A stretch of 34,880 nucleotides of DNA from Bacteroidales bacterium (GTDB taxonomy: Bacteria > Bacteroidota > Bacteroidia > Bacteroidales > JAADGE01): assembly GCA_029934515.1 (NCBI GenBank), contig JAOZMB010000018.1, positions 1 through 34,880 on the forward strand, written 5' to 3'. The position numbers and the translations under genes were made by a program. Of the stretch, positions 6,576-23,818 are shown one piece after another; the stretch's first letter is position 1; every line of letters starts with the position of its first letter. Below the pieces are notes generated by a model, which saw only the letters and a list, made by a program, of their open reading frames with translations, was not told the DNA's origin and did no database searches.

Positions 6576-9500
6576 ATGAAACAATTACAAGCAGGATATT
6601 TTATAGAAACAGTTACAGAATTATACAGCACTCGGCATATAGAAGAACAATTTTTACCTTTGTTAAAAAAACTATCATGCTTCGATATAGAAACAGAAAC
6701 AGATATTTCACACAGAATAAAAAATTCATCTGTTGCTGTAATAAATAATATTATAACAAGAGGAACTCCTACTCGACCTTCGATTTTTATTGGAGATCTT
6801 ATTTCACGAATTTTTTCGCAAACAGTGAAACGAACAAATGCAGGAGGAAATATAAGATATAATTTTGTTGCAGGAACAGATAAAGAACTAATAAATAAGG
6901 TCTTTCATATTATAGACCCAAGAATAAAAATAAAATATCCGACAAAATATATGTCGGAAACAGAAAAATTTAAAATAGATTTTATTTTTAATGATGTTTT
7001 GAAATATACAGGCGATTATTTTTTGCAGGAAATTAATCTGTTAGACAAAAAAAATAAATTCACAATCGAACCGCCTTATTCAAATAATAACAAAAAAGCT
7101 ATTGTTATTGAGACAGATGTCGACGCAGATATTATAAATGTTGATTACATTCTTATTGAAAAGAAAAGAAAAGAACTTGAAAAACAAAATATTAATTATT
7201 TATACGTAAAAAAAGGTCAAACAGAAACGGTAACCTCTGATTTACAATATTTTACATATAATGAATATTTTGATATTATAAAGAAGAACTTTCTTGTTCC
7301 TTTGTATAATAGAACTTCTGGGCTTGATATGTTGCAAATAGTACTTGCACCTTTTGCAATTGCGAGAATACAAAAAACAGTTATTGAATTTATACTTGCA
7401 GGAAAACTTAAATTAAATGTAAGAAAACTGAAAATTGCTGTTATTGAACGTGATGTACCTGCTGGATATCTTGCATTTGAAGATTTAAAACAACAATTTG
7501 AAAATCTTTACATATTACAAGGAAAAAAAATATATTTTCCAAAAATTGAACTTGATATTTATTACAGCAAAGAGTTTAAGAATGCAAAGTTGAACAATTT
7601 TTTTAAGGGAAACAAAAAAGACATAACCGAATTTGATAAAAACAAATTTTATGATTTGCTGATTGATATTTCCATGCTTCAAAAAACAGGATTTGATGAT
7701 TGTATTCCAGAAACGAAAGCAAAAAATAAAGTGAAAATCCGCTCGGTAAATTCAGTAAATTCTACACGAAAATTTTATACAAGTAAATTAATTTTTTACG
7801 ATGCACTTAAATTCAGAACAGCTGTCAGTTTGGAAAACAAAACAGAAAGGTCTTTAAAATTTTTTCTGCAAAATATATTCCGAAAAAATAATTTTTACGA
7901 TAATCAAATTAATGCAATCAGAAAAGCATTGACACTTGAAAGTTTTACTCAAATAAGTCCACCTGGGAGCGGGAAAACTCTTATTTATCAGTTCGCAGCC
8001 ATAATGCAAGCTGGAATAAGTATTGCCGTGCTTCCTGATACAAATATACTGAGAGAACATTACAACGATTTGCAAAACGAAAATATTGACGGAACTTGTT
8101 ATATTAATTCTTCTAATTATAGGTGTACCGAAAATACAAAAGCTCTAAATAAATTCGGAAACGGTGAATCTTTAATTACTTTTGTTAGTTCGGAAAAATT
8201 TAAGGAAATATCATTCAAGGAAAATATTAACAAATTATTTTTAAATAAAATATATTTTTCTTATTTTGTTATCGATGAAATTCAATGTATTTCGGAATTT
8301 TCATGCGATTTTCGACCTGCATACAAAGAACTTGCAAAATTTGCTTTTGATAATTGTAAAACAAAAAATATTAGAAAAATACCAATTATAGGACTCGGCA
8401 CAACAGCAACTTACAACGTAAAAAAAGATATTATAAGTAACACGAATATAAATTCAGAAAATTTTTTGATATATAAAAACGACAAAAGAAAAATAAATTA
8501 TAAAGTAATAAAAACAAACGAAAAACATACAACTGTGTTGCAATTGTTGGAGGAAACAAAATCCAATACATTAATAGTAAGTCCCGATATAAAAAAGATT
8601 TACGAAATAAATGATGAGAATTATGCAGATATTACAGATATTATACAAACAGAACATAGAGAAATAAAAACTGAATCTTATTTTGGAACAATTGATGCAA
8701 GACGAAATTATGTAGAAAAAGAAGAAGCATACAGTTCAGAAGAAAATTATTTTAATTTTAAAAATAATAATATTAACATATTGACAGTCAACGAGTCGGT
8801 GTGCAATTTTAAGAAATCAGATATTCGTAGAATAATATTTATGAACTTACCTGAATCGTTGGAAAATTTTTATAAAATAATAGGTTGTGCTGGCAGAGAC
8901 GGAAAACCAGCGAACATATATGTATTATACGATGACACAGTTACCGAAATTTTTGAGAATACATACGCCGCAAAATCAAATGGCAAACCCGAACAAGCTG
9001 AGTTAATTCTAAATATAACAAAAGATAGTATTGTTCAAAGACAAAAATTAAATAGAACATATCAGAGTAGAAAAAAAGAAATAAACGTATTGCACGAAAT
9101 TATTGATATAATCAACAAAAAACATAAAGAGTTTAAATTTAACAAGATAACAAAGATTAATTTGATGTTTTCAAATAATGTTTTGAACAATACAATTAAA
9201 ATGCTTGATAAACATTTGCCAGATAAATTCGATGTAAAAGATGTAGAAAAGGCATACAATTCAAATAATTATCATACTGGTTTTATCAATTCTCTAAACG
9301 AAGTTTATAGAACAAAACTTGTAAACGATGATATAGATATTGATGTCGAACTTGAAACGATGTTTTATAATCACAGAGACCAAAATGATACAGAAATAGC
9401 TTTATATAGATTGCAGACAATATCTTATATCGAGAGTTATGAAATTAATTTAAAAGAGAAATATTTTGTTATTTATTTAATGAAAAAACAAGATAGAAAA

Positions 9501-10226
9501 TATATAGAAGCTCTTTCGAACTATTTACAAAAATATTTATCTGCTCGTAATTATCTTGATTTTAGCAAAAAAATAAATGCTTACACTGATACAACAACAT
9601 TAAAAAAGTGTGTAAACTATTTGATTAATTATATTTATGATAATATTGTTGTCGAGAAATATAAACAAATAGAATATATTGATGAGCTTTGTTCAACTCT
9701 TTCCATTGACAAATCAATAGACAAAGAGATTAGAAAAAAAACGAATACTTTTTTGGATAATATTTTTTATTCTAAATATATAAATAATATTTTACGTCCC
9801 AGTTTGGCGCTTGAATGTAGTAATTTCCAAAAAGAAAATTTCTATACTGTTCTAAGATTTATGCGCGATGCTGGTAATTCTTTATGTAATTGTGAACATC
9901 TTTATGTAAGTTCAGAAAAAGCATTATCTAAAAATCCAGAAAATTTTACTTTTCTTTTATTAAATGCTTATGCTCGTTTTTGGAGGAATCCAGATGATGA
10001 GAAAAATTATAATATAGCTTTTGAACGACTGACAAAAGGTTTTTTATTAATGAAACAAAAAGAGATTCTTAGTCTGGAACAAATATTAGACAGAAAAAAT
10101 AATTTTCTTGAAAAATTATACGAACAAAACAATAAATTAAAAGCAAATATAGAACCTATATTTTTCCTTAAAACACACATAAATTGGCTTAATGATTTTA
10201 ATAAAAAATTCTTAAGCAAAAATTAA
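6576..10226 (+). CDS. large divergent RecQ-like superfamily 2 helicase
   Basis: A 1216-residue protein. The core is a RecQ-like helicase: FYDNQINAI (about 440-448) corresponds to motif 0, PPGSGKTLIYQ (462-472) is the Walker A loop, VIDEIQCISEF...DFRPAY (565-582) is Walker B plus the RecQ aromatic-rich region, GLGTTAT (606-612) is motif III, and IIGCAGRDGKP (768-778) is motif VI, with C where the family usually has R. The zinc-binding, RQC and HRDC domains of classical RecQ are not recognisable; about 400 C-terminal residues are unassigned. Residues 174-211 (IVIETD ... D190 ... RKELEKQNINYLYV) recall the Vsr/DUF559 nuclease-like pattern, perhaps degenerate. It stands alone between an AT-rich leader and a large inverted repeat. 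A role in DNA repair or phage defence is inference. Confidence 0.75.
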   Translation: MKQLQAGYFIETVTELYSTRHIEEQFLPLLKKLSCFDIETETDISHRIKNSSVAVINNIITRGTPTRPSIFIGDLISRIFSQTVKRTNAGGNIRYNFVAGTDKELINKVFHIIDPRIKIKYPTKYMSETEKFKIDFIFNDVLKYTGDYFLQEINLLDKKNKFTIEPPYSNNNKKAIVIETDVDADIINVDYILIEKKRKELEKQNINYLYVKKGQTETVTSDLQYFTYNEYFDIIKKNFLVPLYNRTSGLDMLQIVLAPFAIARIQKTVIEFILAGKLKLNVRKLKIAVIERDVPAGYLAFEDLKQQFENLYILQGKKIYFPKIELDIYYSKEFKNAKLNNFFKGNKKDITEFDKNKFYDLLIDISMLQKTGFDDCIPETKAKNKVKIRSVNSVNSTRKFYTSKLIFYDALKFRTAVSLENKTERSLKFFLQNIFRKNNFYDNQINAIRKALTLESFTQISPPGSGKTLIYQFAAIMQAGISIAVLPDTNILREHYNDLQNENIDGTCYINSSNYRCTENTKALNKFGNGESLITFVSSEKFKEISFKENINKLFLNKIYFSYFVIDEIQCISEFSCDFRPAYKELAKFAFDNCKTKNIRKIPIIGLGTTATYNVKKDIISNTNINSENFLIYKNDKRKINYKVIKTNEKHTTVLQLLEETKSNTLIVSPDIKKIYEINDENYADITDIIQTEHREIKTESYFGTIDARRNYVEKEEAYSSEENYFNFKNNNINILTVNESVCNFKKSDIRRIIFMNLPESLENFYKIIGCAGRDGKPANIYVLYDDTVTEIFENTYAAKSNGKPEQAELILNITKDSIVQRQKLNRTYQSRKKEINVLHEIIDIINKKHKEFKFNKITKINLMFSNNVLNNTIKMLDKHLPDKFDVKDVEKAYNSNNYHTGFINSLNEVYRTKLVNDDIDIDVELETMFYNHRDQNDTEIALYRLQTISYIESYEINLKEKYFVIYLMKKQDRKYIEALSNYLQKYLSARNYLDFSKKINAYTDTTTLKKCVNYLINYIYDNIVVEKYKQIEYIDELCSTLSIDKSIDKEIRKKTNTFLDNIFYSKYINNILRPSLALECSNFQKENFYTVLRFMRDAGNSLCNCEHLYVSSEKALSKNPENFTFLLLNAYARFWRNPDDEKNYNIAFERLTKGFLLMKQKEILSLEQILDRKNNFLEKLYEQNNKLKANIEPIFFLKTHINWLNDFNKKFLSKN

Positions 10227-13153: not shown

Positions 13154-13202
13154 AATAAATTACTGTCGGCGGGGTTTCAAACCACACTGACAGTAATTTA
13201 TT
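13154..13202 (+). terminator. terminator-like hairpin after pdxA
   Basis: AATAAATTACTGTC (13154-13167) pairs perfectly with GACAGTAATTTATT (13189-13202), a 14-bp stem whose 21-base apical part contains a smaller GGTTT/AAACC pairing. The T run after the stem is poor. It lies 46 bases past the pdxA stop. The 327-base space between pdxA and tRNA-His holds this hairpin, the repeat at 13271-13306 and the tRNA promoter, and no gene. Confidence 0.5.
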
Positions 13203-13270
13203 TGTGATTTTATTTAAATATCAGCAAAATCAGGTTTGGAAAAATCAAATTTAAATTAATATTTTTTTCT

Positions 13271-13390: not shown

Positions 13391-13421
13391 TTTGTAAGTT
13401 AAAAAACGTTTTTTAACTTTG
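13391..13421 (+). promoter_or_regulatory. promoter of tRNA-His
   Basis: TTTG at 13391-13394 and TAACTTTG at 13414-13421 are separated by 19 bases, a full match to the Bacteroidota promoter consensus. The tRNA begins 13 bases after the -7 box, so the 5' leader is only a few bases long. A perfect 20-base palindrome fills most of the spacer. Confidence 0.75.
13398..13417. promoter_or_regulatory. perfect 20-base palindrome inside the tRNA-His promoter
   Basis: GTTAAAAAAC followed directly by its reverse complement GTTTTTTAAC lies between the -33 and -7 boxes and enters the -7 box. It could be a repressor or activator site, or an intrinsically bent tract. AT-rich background makes such palindromes more likely, so a role is unproven. 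Confidence 0.4.
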
Positions 13422-13434
13422 CAATCTAATTATT

Positions 13435-13508
13435 GCCATCGTAGCTTAGCTGGTTAAAGCGCTGGATTGTGGTTCCAGAGATCAAGGGTTCGAATCTCTT
13501 CGATGGTA
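13435..13508 (+). tRNA. tRNA-His (GTG), lacking encoded G-1, with A73
   Basis: A full cloverleaf can be folded. The acceptor stem GCCATCG (13435-13441) pairs with CGATGGT (13501-13507), with a G-U first pair. T8 and A9 follow, then the D stem GCTT/AAGC and the anticodon stem CTGGA/TCCAG with loop TTGTGGT and anticodon GTG at 13469-13471. The T arm is AAGGG/CTCTT with a TTCGAAT loop. The base before position 1 is T and the discriminator is A73, so the usual bacterial G-1:C73 pair of tRNA-His is not encoded. The 3' CCA is not encoded either. It has its own promoter and terminator and lies directly before hisS. Confidence 0.95.
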
Positions 13509-13514
13509 CAGTTT

Positions 13515-13556
13515 AGAAGGCACTGCAAAATAAATGCAGTGCCTTCTTTTTTTTTT
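13515..13556 (+). terminator. strong Rho-independent terminator between tRNA-His and hisS
   Basis: AGAAGGCACTGCA (13515-13527) pairs perfectly with TGCAGTGCCTTCT (13535-13547), a 13-bp stem with a seven-base loop, followed by ten T bases (13547-13556). It starts seven bases after the tRNA ends and finishes 22 bases before the hisS start codon. Confidence 0.9.
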
Positions 13557-13578
13557 AATTAATCAAATAAATATAAAC

Positions 13579-15186
13579 ATGTCTGATAACAAAAGAGGTA
13601 TAATACCAAGAAAAATTAAAGGTTTTAGAGATATCTATCCAGAATTAAACCAGTTGAGATGGAAAATAATTACAAAAGCTGGAGAGGTTTATAAAAAATA
13701 CGGATACGAACACTGGGACACACCAATAATAGAATATGCTGATTGTCTTGGTAAATATATGCCAGATAGAGACACTATCGAAGAAGGAGTATATTCGTTT
13801 AGAAATCCTGAAAAAGAACCAGTTTATAAAAAAAACGGCGAAGAACTTAGAGATAAATGGAACAAAGTAATAATGGATAACCATCATTTGTCGCTAAGAT
13901 ACGATTTGACAGCACCTCTTGCACGTTTGTATTCTGAAAACCTGTGGTCTCAATTTCTGAAAAATAATATAAACGAAAAAAAAATACCGCTTTTTAGACG
14001 TTACCAATTTGGACAAGTATTTAGATATGAAACAAAATTAGACCCAGGCAGATTTAGAGAATTTTGGCAACTAGATTTCGATACAGTAGGTACAAATAAC
14101 ATAACAGCTGATGCTGAGGTTTGTATGATACTATCAGATGCAATGGAAGCAATAGGTCTAAAACGAGAAACTTATATTGTAAACGTAAACAATAGGAAAA
14201 TACTAAAAGGTTTTTTAAGAGAAATAGGTATCTTTGAAATAAAAATTATTGATGATAAAAATATTTCTCAGAACGGAGAAGAAATAGAACAAGATATTCT
14301 AAGAATAATTGACAAAGTTGATAAAATCGGAATAAAAGAAGTTGTTAAAGAACTCGGAAAAGGTAGAAAAGATTCTTCCGGTGCTAAAATAATAGGTTTA
14401 AAATTGACAGAAAATATTATAGAAAAAATAGAAAAATATTTGACAACTTTTAATGGAATATCAACTAGAACTGAAATAATTAATAATCTTAATAAGCTAT
14501 CAATTAAAGACAAAATATTTAATGAAGGACTTGACGAATTAATTATAATTGATAAATTATTAAATGACATCGGATACAAAGACGATAGAATAGCTTTTTT
14601 GCCAACAATGGTACGCGGTATGGCATATTATACGGGTCCTGTTTTTGAGGTTAATTCTATGCAAAAATACAAAGACGAAAAAGGAAGAGAAAGAAAAGTC
14701 GGTGCAATTTGTGGAGGAGGAAGATACGATGGATTAGTAGAAAAACTAATCGGCATAAAAGCACCAGCAACAGGAGCATCAATCGGAGTCGACAGACTCG
14801 CTGAATTACTTTATTTAACAAAACAAAAAGATAAATTAGAAAACGGACCAGTCTTTATTGTAGTATTTGATGATAACTTAATGTCTGAATATCAGAAAAT
14901 TGCAGCTGAAATAAGAAACGCCGGAATAAAAACAGAAATATATTACGGTACTCAGAAAGGTCTTAGAAAACAACTAACTTATGCTGACAAAAAAAATTGC
15001 CCACTTGCAATTCTAATAGGTGAAGACGAAATAAAACAAGGAATAGTTACTGTTAAAAACCTTAAACTTGGAAAAGATAAAAAAATGCAGGATATAAAAG
15101 ATAGAAAAATATGGAGAGCAAAAGTGCAAAAACAAGTAAAACGTGAAAATCTAATTTCATATATAATAGAAACAATAGAAAAATAA
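13579..15186 (+). CDS. hisS: histidyl-tRNA synthetase, alphaproteobacterial-like type
   Basis: A 535-residue class II synthetase that charges tRNA-His. The family motifs are present: RYDLTAPLAR at 107-116, motif 2 with QVFRYETKLDPGRFREF followed by DFDTVG at about 146-171, the HisA-type RGMAYYTGPVFE at 346-357, GGGRYDG at 379-385, and an anticodon-binding domain from about 422. In motif 2 the usual bacterial RPQKGRYR is KLDPGRFR, close to the alphaproteobacterial PGPGRFR form. In E. coli HisRS this loop contacts the G-1:C73 pair that this tRNA lacks. The frame opens upstream at an ATG inside the terminator (13534); MSDNKRG at 13579 is the plausible start. The enzyme is longer than most HisRS. 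Only 22 bases separate it from the terminator. Confidence 0.95.
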   Translation: MSDNKRGIIPRKIKGFRDIYPELNQLRWKIITKAGEVYKKYGYEHWDTPIIEYADCLGKYMPDRDTIEEGVYSFRNPEKEPVYKKNGEELRDKWNKVIMDNHHLSLRYDLTAPLARLYSENLWSQFLKNNINEKKIPLFRRYQFGQVFRYETKLDPGRFREFWQLDFDTVGTNNITADAEVCMILSDAMEAIGLKRETYIVNVNNRKILKGFLREIGIFEIKIIDDKNISQNGEEIEQDILRIIDKVDKIGIKEVVKELGKGRKDSSGAKIIGLKLTENIIEKIEKYLTTFNGISTRTEIINNLNKLSIKDKIFNEGLDELIIIDKLLNDIGYKDDRIAFLPTMVRGMAYYTGPVFEVNSMQKYKDEKGRERKVGAICGGGRYDGLVEKLIGIKAPATGASIGVDRLAELLYLTKQKDKLENGPVFIVVFDDNLMSEYQKIAAEIRNAGIKTEIYYGTQKGLRKQLTYADKKNCPLAILIGEDEIKQGIVTVKNLKLGKDKKMQDIKDRKIWRAKVQKQVKRENLISYIIETIEK

Positions 15187-16577: not shown

Positions 16578-17582
16578 ATGTTAAATAGACAAAAAATAAT
16601 ATTTGGGAGTCCCGGTACAGGGAAAAGTTATAAAATACAACATGAAATTTTACCCGATTTAGGAATAAAAAAAGAAGATACTGAAAATTGTGTAAAAACT
16701 GTTTTCCACCCAGAATATACTTATGGCGATTTTATGGGAAAACTCTTACCGCTAACAGTAAAAGGAAAAGTTGAATATAATTTTTATGAAGGACATTTTT
16801 TGACAGCATTAGCAAAAGCATATAAAAATATTTTGGAAAATAATAATAAATATGAAAAACCAAAAAATGTAGCACTCGTTATTGACGAACTTAATCGCGG
16901 AAACTCATCTGCAATTTTCGGAACAACTTTCCAACTTCTAGACAGAGAACAAGACGGATGGTCATCTTACGAAATCTCTATCTCCGAAATGGAATTTAAA
17001 AAATTACTTGAACTCTTTGGAATTATAGTAGATAAAAAAACATTTACATATAATGACAGCAATGATATTGTGATTTCAGAAATAGACTCATATCTGAAAA
17101 AATTAAAAATTAAAGATAGAAAAATTAAACTCCCTCCAAATTTATATATCTTGGCAACAATGAATACCTCCGACTCTTCTATTTATTATATGGATAGTGC
17201 TTTTAAAAGACGATGGGACTGGGAATTTTTAAATCCTGATTATGAAAAAGCAAAAGCAAAAAGCAAAAAATTACAAACCAAAGAAAGTAAAGTAGAATGG
17301 GTCAAATTTGTTGATAATTTGAATAAATTTATTAAAAGTAAATCTGATTCTATTCGTAAAGTAGAAGACAAACAAATTGGTTATTGGTTTATTAAAGGTG
17401 AAATAATAACAAGAGAACAAATTAAAAATAAACTTATGTTTTTTATTTGGGACAGCGTTTTTGGATATAATAAACAAGCGCTGGCTGATTTACTCAACGT
17501 AAAAAAGAACGAAATAATAACATTCGGAGACTTTACTAAAAAAGTTGATGTCTTTATTGAAAAAATAATTGATTTTAAATAA
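16578..17582 (+). CDS. McrB-type AAA+ NTPase without N-terminal DNA-binding domain
   Basis: A 334-residue motor protein of the McrB (LlaJI.R1-like) family. GSPGTGKS at 10-17 is Walker A, FHPEYTYGDFMG at 43-54 is a family signature, LVIDELNRGNSSAIFG at 100-115 is Walker B with the McrB DELNRGN motif, MNTSDSSI at 195-202 is the sensor/consensus corresponding to MNTADRS, and KRRW at 210-213 holds the finger arginines. In E. coli McrB a DNA-binding domain of about 160 residues precedes the motor; here Walker A starts at residue 10, so this chain has no room for one. It should assemble into a ring and drive the nuclease encoded two bases downstream. It is the first gene of a coupled four-gene operon. 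Confidence 0.9.
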   Translation: MLNRQKIIFGSPGTGKSYKIQHEILPDLGIKKEDTENCVKTVFHPEYTYGDFMGKLLPLTVKGKVEYNFYEGHFLTALAKAYKNILENNNKYEKPKNVALVIDELNRGNSSAIFGTTFQLLDREQDGWSSYEISISEMEFKKLLELFGIIVDKKTFTYNDSNDIVISEIDSYLKKLKIKDRKIKLPPNLYILATMNTSDSSIYYMDSAFKRRWDWEFLNPDYEKAKAKSKKLQTKESKVEWVKFVDNLNKFIKSKSDSIRKVEDKQIGYWFIKGEIITREQIKNKLMFFIWDSVFGYNKQALADLLNVKKNEIITFGDFTKKVDVFIEKIIDFK

Positions 17583-17584
17583 AT

Positions 17585-19228
17585 ATGTTTCAAAATTTAG
17601 TTGTAAAAAAAGAAGAAATTGAATTTTCTTTTGTCGGCATAAAATATAATCCAATACATAAACAATATGAATTATTTTTACCGCATGGATTTAAAAACTT
17701 TCCAGAAAACGACTTTGAAGTAAAAAAGAACTTCTTTTTTAAAATGTACAAAGTTTTTAAAAAATTTGTTGCCGAACATTCAGAAAGTATAAATAATTAT
17801 AAAATTAAAGACAGAGACGGAGTTATTAAAGGACAAGAAGGTTTTGAAATAAAATTGGGAAATAATAAAAGTACTGTTTTATATAGCAAATTAACTTTAT
17901 TAGATTCTATTTTGCATAATTACGACGAGTTAAAAATTTATTCTTTTTTAAATAAAAATGTAACTAGTCAAAATATTGATTATTCAAAATTAGATAAATA
18001 TTTGCATAAAGCTGTTTTTTTGGAAAATCATGTCCCATTTATCGATGAAATGATAACGCTAAGAAAAAAAAGAGAACACACACATACAAAGTTAATCGAA
18101 ATATATAGTTTTATTTTTAACGAAATTAAAACAGAACTAGAAGAAGAAGAAATTAACCCGATTGTTAGAAAACTTGCAAAAAATTTTAAAGATGAAAATT
18201 TAATGCCAAATAGTTCTTTATTCGATAACAAAACTTATGAAAATACAATTAATACATTAAAAAGTATTCTATCAGAAATAGATAGAAAAATTGCATATAA
18301 AGATGATGACTATTGGCATTTTTTTAGTGCAATAGAAACATTTCTTTACGGTGCAGAAACTAACATAGAACAAAAAGGTGAATATTTTGGAATTAATAAT
18401 TTCTCTTTTGTGTGGGAAAGTATTTGCCAAAACTATATGCTAAAAAGTAAAGATTTCGAAAACCTAATACTATTCGCTGATATCTCCGAAGATAGTGATG
18501 TTTATGAAAAAATATTAGATAAATACGGGGATATTGAAAATAAAATTTTTATTAAAAAAGGATTTAATAATCCATTTAGTTTCCAACTAAACAATACTAC
18601 AAAACAACGATTTCTGAAACCAGACCTAATGAAAGTTGTTTATTACTCGGCAAATATAGAAAAACTTGAAAATGACAGTGGACTAATCCTGGATAATGAT
18701 TTTGTTAATATAAAATTTACTTATATAAACAGTAAAAAATTAAATGCAAAAATTAAACTAATAAACAAAAAAAGAAAAAAAGATCTGGTAAAACTAATTA
18801 GGGTATTAAAAAAATCATCGCGTTCTGATAACCGTACAGAAATATTCATAAAAAATATTCATATAGATGTTATAATAAAAAATTTGAATCTAATGATGAG
18901 TGATAAATATGAAATTATAGATTACAAATACCATCCATTAAATGATTTTATTAAAATTAATGATAAAATTATAGATGATATAAAAAAACAATTAGTCTAT
19001 GAATTAGCTTTTGAAAACTCATTAGAGTTATCGAATAAAAATTATATTAATTACCAGATAAAAAGCCAATTTGTAATTCCTTATTATTTCGACGAAAATT
19101 ATTTTAAATCAAAAGATGATATGATTGGTGAATCACACATGAATACAAATAAATTATTGAAAAATAATAAAATTAAATTGTTCAAAGCAAATTTTATGTA
19201 TATTATAGAAAAATATTTAGAAAAATGA
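17585..19228 (+). CDS. LlaJI/McrC-type PD-(D/E)XK restriction nuclease subunit
   Basis: A 547-residue protein that pairs with the McrB-type motor. The C-terminal part carries a PD-(D/E)XK nuclease core: FVWESICQNYM (275-285) resembles the opening helix, P346-D347 in FLKPDLMKV provides the first acidic residue, D446-Y447-K448 in IIDYKYHP is the (D/E)XK element, and Q469 with Y472 in KKQLVYE is the QxxxY motif typical of LlaJI and McrC. About 100 residues, basic around 383-410, separate PD from DYK, more than expected, so there is an insertion. The N-terminal half (1-270) is unassigned and probably contacts the motor, as in McrC. The start follows the motor gene by two bases; the end overlaps the next start by four (ATGA). 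Confidence 0.85.
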   Translation: MFQNLVVKKEEIEFSFVGIKYNPIHKQYELFLPHGFKNFPENDFEVKKNFFFKMYKVFKKFVAEHSESINNYKIKDRDGVIKGQEGFEIKLGNNKSTVLYSKLTLLDSILHNYDELKIYSFLNKNVTSQNIDYSKLDKYLHKAVFLENHVPFIDEMITLRKKREHTHTKLIEIYSFIFNEIKTELEEEEINPIVRKLAKNFKDENLMPNSSLFDNKTYENTINTLKSILSEIDRKIAYKDDDYWHFFSAIETFLYGAETNIEQKGEYFGINNFSFVWESICQNYMLKSKDFENLILFADISEDSDVYEKILDKYGDIENKIFIKKGFNNPFSFQLNNTTKQRFLKPDLMKVVYYSANIEKLENDSGLILDNDFVNIKFTYINSKKLNAKIKLINKKRKKDLVKLIRVLKKSSRSDNRTEIFIKNIHIDVIIKNLNLMMSDKYEIIDYKYHPLNDFIKINDKIIDDIKKQLVYELAFENSLELSNKNYINYQIKSQFVIPYYFDENYFKSKDDMIGESHMNTNKLLKNNKIKLFKANFMYIIEKYLEK

Positions 19229-19692
19229 TAGAAAAAAATAAAAATATTAAAAGTAATTATGTACCACTCATTTCATTTCAGGATAGTGAAAAAGCAAATA
19301 AATATATAAACAAAGAAATAAAAAATTTCTTTTTAAGAAAAAAAATTGAAAATTATGCAGATAATCCATTAAATATTAAAGATATTATTTCGGATGAAGA
19401 TTTTCTGTACGTAGAATCTGAAAATCAAAAATATGAAGATTATAAATTTAAAATCGATTATTTTTATGATACTATTATTGGAAAATTAGAAAAAGATGAA
19501 AACGGTATTTTAAATCATAAAATAAATTATGCTATTACTTTTGATAAAAAACTAGTACCATTCAAAATAAAAATAAAATATAAAAATCGACTCTTCGGAG
19601 AAATTAGACTAGGAGGGAAAGCAGTATTTTATTATATATATTTCGATTTGCAAGAAATAATAAATCACAATAAAAATGATAAAGAAAGATAA
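19225..19692 (+). CDS. 155-residue protein of unknown function in the defence operon
   Basis: A small protein with a lysine- and asparagine-rich N-terminal third, an acidic middle (about residues 50-75), and a C-terminal segment with alternating hydrophobic residues (ITFDKKLVPFKIKIKYKNRL, then FGEIRLGGKAVFYYIYF) that looks like a beta-sheet. I do not recognise the family and see no catalytic motif, signal peptide or membrane segment. It overlaps the LlaJI-like gene by four bases and the following R-M-S gene by 17 bases, so it is translationally coupled on both sides and probably belongs to the system. It could supply the DNA-binding domain missing from the McrB-type protein, or link the two halves of the operon; both ideas are inference. 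Confidence 0.75.
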   Translation: MIEKNKNIKSNYVPLISFQDSEKANKYINKEIKNFFLRKKIENYADNPLNIKDIISDEDFLYVESENQKYEDYKFKIDYFYDTIIGKLEKDENGILNHKINYAITFDKKLVPFKIKIKYKNRLFGEIRLGGKAVFYYIYFDLQEIINHNKNDKER

Positions 19693-22600
19693 TTTTAAAG
19701 AACTTTTAAGATATTTAAAGTTCAAAGAAAAAAATAATATTTTTTATAAAAATTTTAAGCAGCCTGGAGTATATTTAAAAGCTGATTTTAAAAAAAAAAT
19801 ATTAGAATATCCAGAACTAATAGGACTCATAATTAACGAAAGACAAACATGTAATTTTGATGCAGCAGAAAATGCAGTCGTCTTCGAATGTGTAAACAAA
19901 CTATTAGAAAAAGGATACAAACCAAAACATATAGAACTCGAACCAAAATGGAAAATAGGACACGGAGCAAGCGGAGGAAGAGCTGATATACTCGTAAAAG
20001 ACCAAAACAACAAGCCTATTCTAATTATAGAATGCAAAACATACGGAAAAGAATTCTACAAAGCTTGGAAAGATACAAAAGAAGACGGAGGACAACTATT
20101 CTCGTATGCGCAACAAATAGCAGAAACAAAATTCCTATGCCTATACGCAAGCGAATTTGATAAAAAAAATAAACAAATTATAACAGAACAAAGAATAATT
20201 TCGCACAAAGATAATGATAAAATACTCGAACAAAATGAAAACCTAAAATCTTTTAGAAACGCTACTAATGTAAAAAAACGTTTCAACGTTTGGACAGAAA
20301 CATACCAACAAGAATATACGGAAACAGGAATATTCGAAAATAATATACAAGCATATCAAATTGGTAAAAATAATTATTCTCTCGAAATAGACACAAGACC
20401 AGTAACGGACAAAGATAAAAACGGAAAATACCACCGTTTCAGAACAATACTTAGACAACACAATATCGCCAGAAGAGAAACAGCTTTCGAAGTACTCGTA
20501 AATCTTTTCCTTGCTAAAATTGTGGACGAAGAAGAAAACAAAAATAAACTCGAATTCTACTGGAAAGGTATTGCTTATGATAATTACTACGACTTCATTG
20601 ACAGACTGCAAAAACTTTATCAAGTAGGTATGCGTAAATTCCTAAAAGATGAAGTTATGTATATCAGCTCAGAACAAATTGATAACGCATTCTGGACAGT
20701 AAAAAACAAAAAAAACGCAACTAAAAAACAAATACAAAAATATTTTAGAGACCTTAAATTCTTCTCAAACAACGCATTCTCGCTTATTAATGTACACAAC
20801 GAAAGACTTTTTAATAGAAATACAAAAGTTATTGTCGAAATTGTACAAATGTGGCAAAATCTAAGACTTAAAACTAAAAAACAAAACCAATTCCTGGGAG
20901 ATATGTTTGAATTCTTCCTTGACAATTCTATTAAACAATCAGAAGGACAATTTTTTACGCCAATGCCAATAACTAAATTTATTGTCGCAGCGCTGCCATT
21001 AGAATATAAAATAAAAAATTCAAAAGAACCATTAAAAGCAATCGATTACGCATGCGGAGCAGGACACTTCCTTAATGAATATGCAAACCAAATAAAAAAA
21101 CTTGTCGAAAAATATAAAAATACCGAAATTAGTAAATATTACGAAAATATAATTGGAATAGAAAAAGAAGACAGACTTGCAAAAATTGCTAAAGTATCAG
21201 CTTATATGTACGGACAAGACCAAATAAAAATATTAGAAAAAGATGCACTCAGCAATATTGATGAAATAAAACCCGAAAGTTTTGATGTACTTGTTGCAAA
21301 TCCGCCTTTTGCAGTAGAAGGTTTTTTAATGAATCTCGACCAAAAACAAAAGAAAAATTATAAACTTATAAAAACAACTAAAAATAACAGCAATACAAAT
21401 AATATACAATGTTTTTTTATCGAAAGGGCAAAACAAATTATGTCTCCAAACGGTGTAGTTGGAATTATTGTACCATCGTCTATACTCTCGAACTCTGATG
21501 CTACGCATATAGGAACTCGTGAAATTATAATTAAATTTTTTGATATTATTGCTATTGTTGAACTCGGAAGCGGTACTTTTGGTAAAACAGGTACAAATAC
21601 AGTAGTCCTTTTTCTGAAACGTAAATGCGAAAGACCAGAACAAGAAGAACATTACGCAAACCGTGTAGAAGATTATTTCGAAGAAAATTTAAGAGAACAA
21701 TTAATTGGAAATAAACCTCTAAATAGAGATATTTTAGAATATCAGGATTTAGACCTGATAAAAGAATATTGCAAACATATTAAAATAGAATTTGATGAAT
21801 ATATAAAAATATTTGGAATTACAGACGAAGATATGGATAAATTAGAAAAGCTTCTGAAATATGATATTTTTGTAGAATACAAAAAAAACTTTGAAAAAAG
21901 TAACGAAGTTAAAAACTTAAAAAAGAAAATCTATTTTAAAAAGAAAAATAAAGTAGAAAAAAAGAAAATTTTAGACGAAAATTTTATAGAATATATATAC
22001 GCAATAGAAAAAGAAAAACTATTTTATTTTATATTGGCGCACGAAAACAAGCAAAAAGTACTGATAGTAAAAAGTCCGAAAAATAACAAAATTCAAAAGA
22101 AATTTTTGGGATACCAATGGAGCGGAGCAAAAGGAAAAGAAGGTATAAAATATATAGATGGAAACGGATTAAATGATATTATTACACCTTTGTTTAACCC
22201 GAAAAACACAAACGACAAAACAAAAATAAATTATCTTATACAACAAAATTTTATCGGTGCTAAACAAAACGACTTAAAAGATTTTCAGCAATACAAAGAT
22301 TTAGTTAGTTATGTTAATGTTACTGATATTCTTGATTTTAGCAGAAAAGATTTTAATAAAAATTTTTTGCTCTCGCCTAAGAAAAATATTAATATTGATA
22401 CTAAATGGGAGTTAGTGAAGTTGGGAGAAGTTGTTGAAACTTTAAACGGATTATGGATTGGGAAGAAAGAGCCTTTTGTTAAAGTTACAGTAATAAGAAA
22501 TACGAATTTTACAAAAGGAGGAAAATTTGATTTATCTGATGTTGCTGTATTAGAAGTTGAAAAAAAACAATACGAAAAACGAAAATTAAAATACGGTGAT

Positions 22601-23500
22601 ATTGTTATTGAAAAATCAGGTGGAAGTGATACACAGGCAATTGGTCGTGTTATATTTTTTAATAAAAAAGAAGGTGAGTATTCTTACTCTAATTTTACAA
22701 GTAGATTAAGATTAATTTCAAATAATATAAAATCTGAATATTTATATTTATACTTAAACTATTTTTATGAACTTGGTTTTACATTTGATTTTCAAAAAGG
22801 TATGAGTGGGATTAAAAATTTAGATTTTGAACAATATTTGTCAATCAAAATCCCTTTACCTCCCAAAAGCGTACAAGAGCAAATAGTAAACGAGTGCGAA
22901 GTTATAGACAAGGCAAGCGAAAAAGCACAAAAAATTATTGATAAAACTAATGCAAATATTTATAATGAAATAAAAGAATTTAAAAAAAATAATTGGGAAA
23001 AATCGACTATTGAAAATTTAGAAATAGACATTTTAGGTAATTTGTCAAAAATACCAAAAAAAGAAATTTTAGAGAATGGGAAATATCCAGTGATAACACA
23101 AGAATCAAATAAATTAATATCTGGTTATACAAATGAATCATTCGTTATTACAGATTTGCCTTTAATTGTTTTTGGCGACCACACTTGTATTTTTAAATAT
23201 ATTGATTTTCCTTTTGTCAGAGGTGCCGATGGAACAAAATTATTAAAAGTTGATAGCAAAAAAATTATTCCTAAATATTTTTATTTTATAATAAAACAAA
23301 CACAAATAACAAATAAAGATAGATATGAAAGACATTATAAATATATAAAAGATTTAAAAATCCCTGTTCCACCCTTATCAGAGCAAAAAATTTTAGTATC
23401 CAAAATAGAAGACTTAGAAAATATAATAATTAAATCTCAAGGCATAATTTCTATTTCTTCTGCAAAAAAACAATCAATAATGGATAATTATTTGAAATAA
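19676..23500 (+). CDS. single-chain restriction-modification-specificity (R-M-S) fusion
   Basis: A 1274-residue protein with three parts. Residues about 50-200 form a PD-(D/E)XK nuclease domain like the HsdR N-terminus: D104 in GGRADILV, E119 and K121 in IIECK, and Q140 in GGQLFSYAQQ. Residues about 400-700 are an N6-adenine methyltransferase: QFFTP at 425-429, motif I DYACGAGHF at 457-465 (the usual DPACGSG), and motif IV NPPF at 542-545. From about 905 on there are two HsdS-type target recognition domains, one starting near TKWELVKLGEVV and one near NWEKSTIENL, each ended by a conserved PLPP/PVPP...EQ helix. No helicase motor is present, so it is of type IIG/IIB layout rather than type I. 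It overlaps the preceding gene by 17 bases. Confidence 0.9.
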   Translation: MIKKDNFKELLRYLKFKEKNNIFYKNFKQPGVYLKADFKKKILEYPELIGLIINERQTCNFDAAENAVVFECVNKLLEKGYKPKHIELEPKWKIGHGASGGRADILVKDQNNKPILIIECKTYGKEFYKAWKDTKEDGGQLFSYAQQIAETKFLCLYASEFDKKNKQIITEQRIISHKDNDKILEQNENLKSFRNATNVKKRFNVWTETYQQEYTETGIFENNIQAYQIGKNNYSLEIDTRPVTDKDKNGKYHRFRTILRQHNIARRETAFEVLVNLFLAKIVDEEENKNKLEFYWKGIAYDNYYDFIDRLQKLYQVGMRKFLKDEVMYISSEQIDNAFWTVKNKKNATKKQIQKYFRDLKFFSNNAFSLINVHNERLFNRNTKVIVEIVQMWQNLRLKTKKQNQFLGDMFEFFLDNSIKQSEGQFFTPMPITKFIVAALPLEYKIKNSKEPLKAIDYACGAGHFLNEYANQIKKLVEKYKNTEISKYYENIIGIEKEDRLAKIAKVSAYMYGQDQIKILEKDALSNIDEIKPESFDVLVANPPFAVEGFLMNLDQKQKKNYKLIKTTKNNSNTNNIQCFFIERAKQIMSPNGVVGIIVPSSILSNSDATHIGTREIIIKFFDIIAIVELGSGTFGKTGTNTVVLFLKRKCERPEQEEHYANRVEDYFEENLREQLIGNKPLNRDILEYQDLDLIKEYCKHIKIEFDEYIKIFGITDEDMDKLEKLLKYDIFVEYKKNFEKSNEVKNLKKKIYFKKKNKVEKKKILDENFIEYIYAIEKEKLFYFILAHENKQKVLIVKSPKNNKIQKKFLGYQWSGAKGKEGIKYIDGNGLNDIITPLFNPKNTNDKTKINYLIQQNFIGAKQNDLKDFQQYKDLVSYVNVTDILDFSRKDFNKNFLLSPKKNINIDTKWELVKLGEVVETLNGLWIGKKEPFVKVTVIRNTNFTKGGKFDLSDVAVLEVEKKQYEKRKLKYGDIVIEKSGGSDTQAIGRVIFFNKKEGEYSYSNFTSRLRLISNNIKSEYLYLYLNYFYELGFTFDFQKGMSGIKNLDFEQYLSIKIPLPPKSVQEQIVNECEVIDKASEKAQKIIDKTNANIYNEIKEFKKNNWEKSTIENLEIDILGNLSKIPKKEILENGKYPVITQESNKLISGYTNESFVITDLPLIVFGDHTCIFKYIDFPFVRGADGTKLLKVDSKKIIPKYFYFIIKQTQITNKDRYERHYKYIKDLKIPVPPLSEQKILVSKIEDLENIIIKSQGIISISSAKKQSIMDNYLK

Positions 23501-23506
23501 TATATT

Positions 23507-23818
23507 ATGATAACTCTAAATATTGAATTACAACCAGACATCGAGCAACGATTAAATTACCTCATGTCAAAACAAACCGATATAGAATACTTTTTTAAGG
23601 ATTTTATTATTTACAAAATTTCACATTTAGAGAAAGCTATTTTCAATATCGAAAAAGATTTACGAAAATATGAACGTAAATACAATCTTTCATCACCATT
23701 ATTTTTTCAACAATTTGAATCTGGGAAGTTCGGAGACGAAGATGATTATATGATTTGGTCTGGTATTTATGAAATGTTGCAAGAAAATAAAACCGAACTT
23801 AAAAAAATTCAATGTTAA
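23507..23818 (+). CDS. antitoxin-like coiled-coil protein
   Basis: A 103-residue acidic protein. A predicted helix-rich region (residues 20-60, with LEKAIFNIEKDLRKYERKY) is followed by FQQFESGKFGDEDDYMIWSGIYEML, a pattern (F..G..GDE.D...W.G..E) that I associate with small antitoxins encoded next to toxins such as TumE or nucleotidyltransferases. It starts six bases after the R-M-S gene and is followed 11 bases later by a broken nucleotidyltransferase gene, which fits a two-gene toxin-antitoxin or antitoxin-nucleotidyltransferase unit. The specific partner type is not certain. Whether it is still under selection without an intact partner is unknown; its own frame is intact. Confidence 0.6.
   Translation: MITLNIELQPDIEQRLNYLMSKQTDIEYFFKDFIIYKISHLEKAIFNIEKDLRKYERKYNLSSPLFFQQFESGKFGDEDDYMIWSGIYEMLQENKTELKKIQC

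Follow-up and report, generated by a model that had tools for sequence, protein, structure and literature searches.

The window, the 34,880-nt stretch of contig JAOZMB010000018.1 (assembly GCA_029934515.1, Bacteroidales bacterium) that we analyzed, contained a single tRNA gene, tRNA-His(GUG), followed on the same strand by hisS. ARAGORN and Rfam both called a complete tRNA-His(GTG) at 13435-13508/9 (67.5 bits). The base before it at 13434 is T (position -1), and the acceptor stem reads GCCATCG / CGATGGT, giving G1:U72 with A73 at 13508, followed by C-A-G, so that neither G-1:C73 nor CCA is encoded. Position 72 is the other acceptor position in which the Caulobacter and E. coli pairs are said to differ (PMC3875453). 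Upstream of the tRNA was a likely Bacteroidota-type promoter at 13391-13421 (+) (TTTG at 13391-13394, a 19-nt spacer, and TAACTTTG at 13414-13421), assigned by resemblance to the Bacteroidota -33/-7 consensus. An intrinsic-terminator hairpin (13 bp, followed by about 10 T) lay between tRNA and hisS at 13515-13547 (+). Little more than 20-30 nt separate its T run from the hisS start, so hisS is probably made by read-through from the tRNA promoter. A long inverted repeat at 13155-13205 (aataaattactgtc ... gacagtaatttatt) lay between pdxA and the tRNA. Elsewhere in the window, 6576-10226 encoded a 1216-aa protein with a RecQ/DpdF-like helicase domain in the middle and unexplained N- and C-terminal parts, and 16578-23818 held a defence island near hisS with a McrB-like AAA protein and a 1274-aa type IIG restriction-methyltransferase (1284 bits).

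The hisS gene (13579-15186, +) encodes a 535-aa histidyl-tRNA synthetase, with the start supported by relatives at ATG 13579 and not 13534. The protein scored 329 bits against TIGR00442 (cut-off 286.75), contained PF13393 and PF03129, and had a predicted fold that matched HisRS structures (model pLDDT 80, with low confidence in the motif-2 loop at residues 151-156). Motif 2 reads FRYETKLDPGRFREF, as the initial annotation stated. The motif-2 loop, RYETKLDPGRFR (residues 149-160; 14023-14058, +), has Asp where ordinary enzymes have the Gln linked to G-1:C73 (PMC3937112), and one extra residue. The genome (3.34 Mb, 98% complete, 201 contigs) had no other hisS over the cut-off, as two weak hits in one 649-aa frame were far below it, and no other tRNA-His recognizable by pattern.

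tRNA type and HisRS type co-segregated among relatives. In 60 relatives, 47 of them informative, 42 had C73 with an ordinary HisRS (about 32-37% identity to the window enzyme) and five had A73 with the window-type HisRS, with none discordant (Fisher 6.5e-7, not corrected for relatedness). The encoded G-1 was read in all 21 distinct ordinary tRNAs checked. The five were the window genome (G000), G004, G013, and G018 of the same family (72-75% identity) and G055 of another family (57%). Both types occurred within the single genus g4. One further assembly, G056, had an A73 tRNA-His (A1:U72) but no HisRS of this clade; its HisRS-like ORF is divergent and may be on a foreign contig (loci on contigs C308 and C419). 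In 395 genomes drawn across the phylum, nine recognizable tRNA-His had A73, all with U72, after many pattern matches that did not read as tRNA-His were discarded by eye. All nine genomes carried a HisRS of the same wider clade: four, including G000, were window-type, and five were a second type ("type 2", about 44-45% identity where reported).

A scan of 84,980 species genomes found 60 loci with window-type HisRS in Bacteroidales, Saprospiraceae, Chitinophagales, Ignavibacteria, Kapabacteria, and three MAGs labelled Acidobacteriota or Aminicenantes. In about 40 of these, tRNA-His lay just upstream on the same strand (28-382 bp, median 102), although in some genomes it was not adjacent (e.g., G055 and loci L082 and L087). 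A terminator hairpin similar to that of the window was present between tRNA and hisS in 30 of 37 cassettes. None of the tRNAs had G-1:C73. Position 73 was A, with G in four loci and U in two. The 1:72 pair was G:U or, in many Saprospiraceae, C:G, and position 72 was C in G055, so identity cannot rest on U72 throughout. The C1:G72-A73 arrangement of the Saprospiraceae cassettes is notable because G72 and A73 are listed as bacterial tRNA-Pro determinants (PMC9976931), and we infer that the anticodon should carry much of the discrimination there. Of 40 carriers of the wider clade checked for other HisRS, each had only this one, apart from a decaying second cassette in SZUA-53, in which hisS stops after about 250 codons and has lost conserved Arg residues while its tRNA has A73 (the first cassette has G73).

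Changes in the synthetase matched those in the tRNA. Ordinary enzymes had R/K-P-Q-K/R-G-R-Y-R in 25 of 25 sequences, while the alphaproteobacterial enzymes had KPGPGR(F/Y)R, type 2 had KPDPGRFR, and the window type had xKLDPGRFR, one residue longer, with D, T, S, A, L, M, and rarely Q at the place of the Gln. The ancestral Gln there interacts with G-1:C73, and its replacement covaries with the tRNA in alphaproteobacteria (PMC3937112). No Thg1 (PF04446) was found in the window genome or in 20 others carrying A73-type tRNA-His or the clade HisRS, while the positive control genome gave a hit, so G-1 is neither encoded nor, as far as known enzymes go, added.

The mature 5' end is inferred. Ordinary tRNA-His had A-Y just before G-1 (21/21), whereas the new type had Y at -1 (44/48), as if the RNase P cut had moved by one base; the base at -1 contributes to the efficiency and fidelity of RNase P cleavage (PMC3874170). 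Alternatively, U-1 may be retained, with U-1:A73 replacing G-1:C73 as an eighth pair that the enzyme reads. Position -1 was T in 36 of 42 distinct window-type tRNAs, folding paired U-1 with A73, and A-1:U73 in two related loci and U-1:G73 in four keep pairing possible. The A-1 with U73 in the slightly shorter tRNA-His of MAGs labelled Acidobacteria and Aminicenantes (L078 and L121) is a possible compensatory swap. However, C-1, A-1, and G-1 opposite A73 occurred in several lineages, and U-1 with A73 appears to be common in tRNAs that are cut at +1. Retention of U-1 is not excluded, but we consider it unlikely.

Phylogenetics of 68 HisRS with IQ-TREE resolved the window type as sister to the alphaproteobacterial G-1-less HisRS (99/97), with type 2 joining them (99/99) and ordinary Bacteroidota elsewhere. 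Grouping the window type with ordinary Bacteroidota was rejected (AU p=5.9e-8). The eight alphaproteobacterial sequences formed one clade (100/99), so the window enzyme is not an alphaproteobacterial gene but a sister lineage of it, although alphaproteobacterial sampling was limited to plasmid-borne Rhodobacterales and Rhizobiales genes. Holding the alphaproteobacterial and human HisRS together was also rejected (p=0.0012), but this is weak, as one partial human sequence on a long branch stands for all eukaryotes. Sequences from the Acidobacteriota and Aminicenantes MAGs nested inside the Bacteroidota set.

DISPLACEMENT. Within the family, the cassettes of G000, G004, and G018/G013 lay in three different neighbourhoods, and the pdxA beside the window cassette was not shared by the other carriers of the family, contrary to a conserved insertion site. 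In the g4 genomes with the ordinary enzyme that were read, hisS followed infB. In G018 and G013 the same place held an open frame of about 220 codons (L213:2942-3589 and L214:4087-4734), 44-47% identical (G018) to native HisRS of the genus over residues about 127-346, without motifs 1 and 2 or the anticodon domain, with conserved glycine-rich stretches altered and only a weak PF13393 hit. We take this to be the displaced native enzyme. It may not be a plain pseudogene, as the frame is open in both species and its dN/dS of 0.39, against 0.17 for the cassette hisS, shows some constraint (p about 0.006-0.015), so it may be decaying slowly or reused. The tRNAs of the family's cassettes matched cassette tRNAs of Saprospiraceae or Ignavibacteria at 90-92% over their length, against at most 73% for ordinary tRNA-His of the family, though the comparison sets differ in size. 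Together these results support joint transfer of tRNA and synthetase. In-place drift, in which the native tRNA lost G-1:C73 and the native HisRS adapted to it, would be the simplest model needing no transfer, but it had no positive evidence here and is rejected by the tree, with the tRNA similarity and the native remnant also against it.

Two other explanations appear improbable. The window-type pair could be ancestral to the FCB group, having coexisted with the ordinary pair and been lost in most lineages without recent horizontal transfer, since the clade recurs in Saprospiraceae and Ignavibacteria and the tree does not require an outside donor. However, this would need long coexistence of both pairs with repeated loss, and both types occur within one genus whose two cassette-bearing members carry the native remnant at the native site, the family's cassettes lie in three neighbourhoods, and the sequences from Acidobacteriota and Aminicenantes MAGs nest inside the Bacteroidota clade. 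A binning or assembly artefact is very unlikely. Although the window is a contig of a fragmented assembly and the genomes of this family appear to be MAGs, four assemblies of the family showed the same pair in different contexts on 22-168 kb contigs, each without another full hisS, and the neighbouring pdxA was 65-69% identical to that of most family members.

We therefore propose, with a probability of roughly 0.85, that tRNA-His and hisS form a two-gene identity cassette acquired horizontally. In this model, RNase P cuts the pre-tRNA after U-1 to give an ordinary 7-bp acceptor stem with A73, CCA is added post-transcriptionally, and the adjacent HisRS, whose motif-2 loop has lost the Gln that reads G-1:C73, charges it without G-1 by reading A73, the acceptor end, and the anticodon. 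Because the resident G-1:C73-type HisRS and tRNA-His should not cross-react with this pair, synthetase and tRNA travel together, and after acquisition the native pair is lost or decays. The 5' end, charging without G-1, lack of cross-reaction, and mechanism of transfer are inferred without biochemistry, and no transposase or integrase was noticed beside the window cassette, although cassette edges were not analyzed systematically. The initial annotation, which suggested replacement of the identity system by transfer of hisS, possibly with its tRNA, was thus largely right, with the refinements that the enzyme described there as alphaproteobacterial-like belongs to a sister lineage with a motif-2 loop one residue longer, and that the system is not a one-off but is scattered through Bacteroidota, Ignavibacteriota, and a few MAGs labelled Acidobacteriota or Aminicenantes.

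Loss of G-1 in bacterial tRNA-His has been described as an alphaproteobacterial trait that "likely arose only once" (PMC3937112), in contrast to "all other bacteria" (PMC4284800). Reviews and papers of 2014 to 2019 list only alphaproteobacteria among bacteria (PMC4284800, PMC6471195, PMC3937112), a 2023 review has no mention of Bacteroid- (PMC9976931), and our searches found no description in Bacteroidota, though an earlier mention in the key primary papers is possible. A foreign synthetase is expected to adapt to resident identity rules rather than replace them (PMC3937112), but here it appears to have brought its own tRNA and its own rules. It is somewhat more likely than not that the cassette behaves as a transplantable, orthogonal identity system that has entered lineages of Bacteroidota, Ignavibacteriota, Acidobacteriota, and Aminicenantes and displaced the resident synthetase and tRNA together, with the alphaproteobacterial exception being one branch of this wider lineage rather than a unique event of eukaryotic origin. 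These loci provide repeated natural transplants of tRNA identity to compare, one with the displaced native enzyme still visible, a reason to re-examine the proposed eukaryotic origin of the alphaproteobacterial enzyme, and dozens of natural HisRS/tRNA-His pairs that may be orthogonal to E. coli and useful for genetic-code work. They also urge caution in annotation, as a fixed expectation of G-1 would misplace the 5' end of these tRNAs.

The closest known system is the G-1-less tRNA-His/HisRS pair of RRCH alphaproteobacteria (Rhodobacterales, Rhizobiales, Caulobacterales; C. crescentus), which shares the absence of an encoded G-1, A73, the absence of Thg1, replacement of the motif-2 Gln, and a HisRS of the same wider clade. 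Our search for alphaproteobacterial tRNA-His on plasmids returned only tRNA-Met and tRNA-Arg among the four hits read, so no alphaproteobacterial tRNA-His was compared directly. The window system differs in its separate sister HisRS lineage (35-41% identity) with the longer motif-2 loop (KLDPGRFR against KPGPGRFR), in its variable 1:72 pair, in its occurrence in other phyla, and in having tRNA-His directly upstream of hisS, while no tRNA was found within 3 kb in the four alphaproteobacterial loci examined. The ordinary Bacteroidota (Bacteroides type) pair shares the enzyme family (TIGR00442) and codon assignment, but has RPQKGRYR in motif 2, an encoded G-1:C73, hisS after infB in this genus, and about 30-35% identity in a separate clade. 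The cytosolic tRNA-His of Trypanosoma brucei and Acanthamoeba castellanii are histidylated without G-1 (PMC4284800, PMC6471195), as is inferred here, but these are eukaryotic, with a different HisRS solution according to PMC4284800. CPR bacteria with archaeal-type TyrRS/TrpRS and matching tRNA identity (PMC5370408) likewise combine a foreign synthetase with foreign tRNA identity, but for different amino acids and from different donors.
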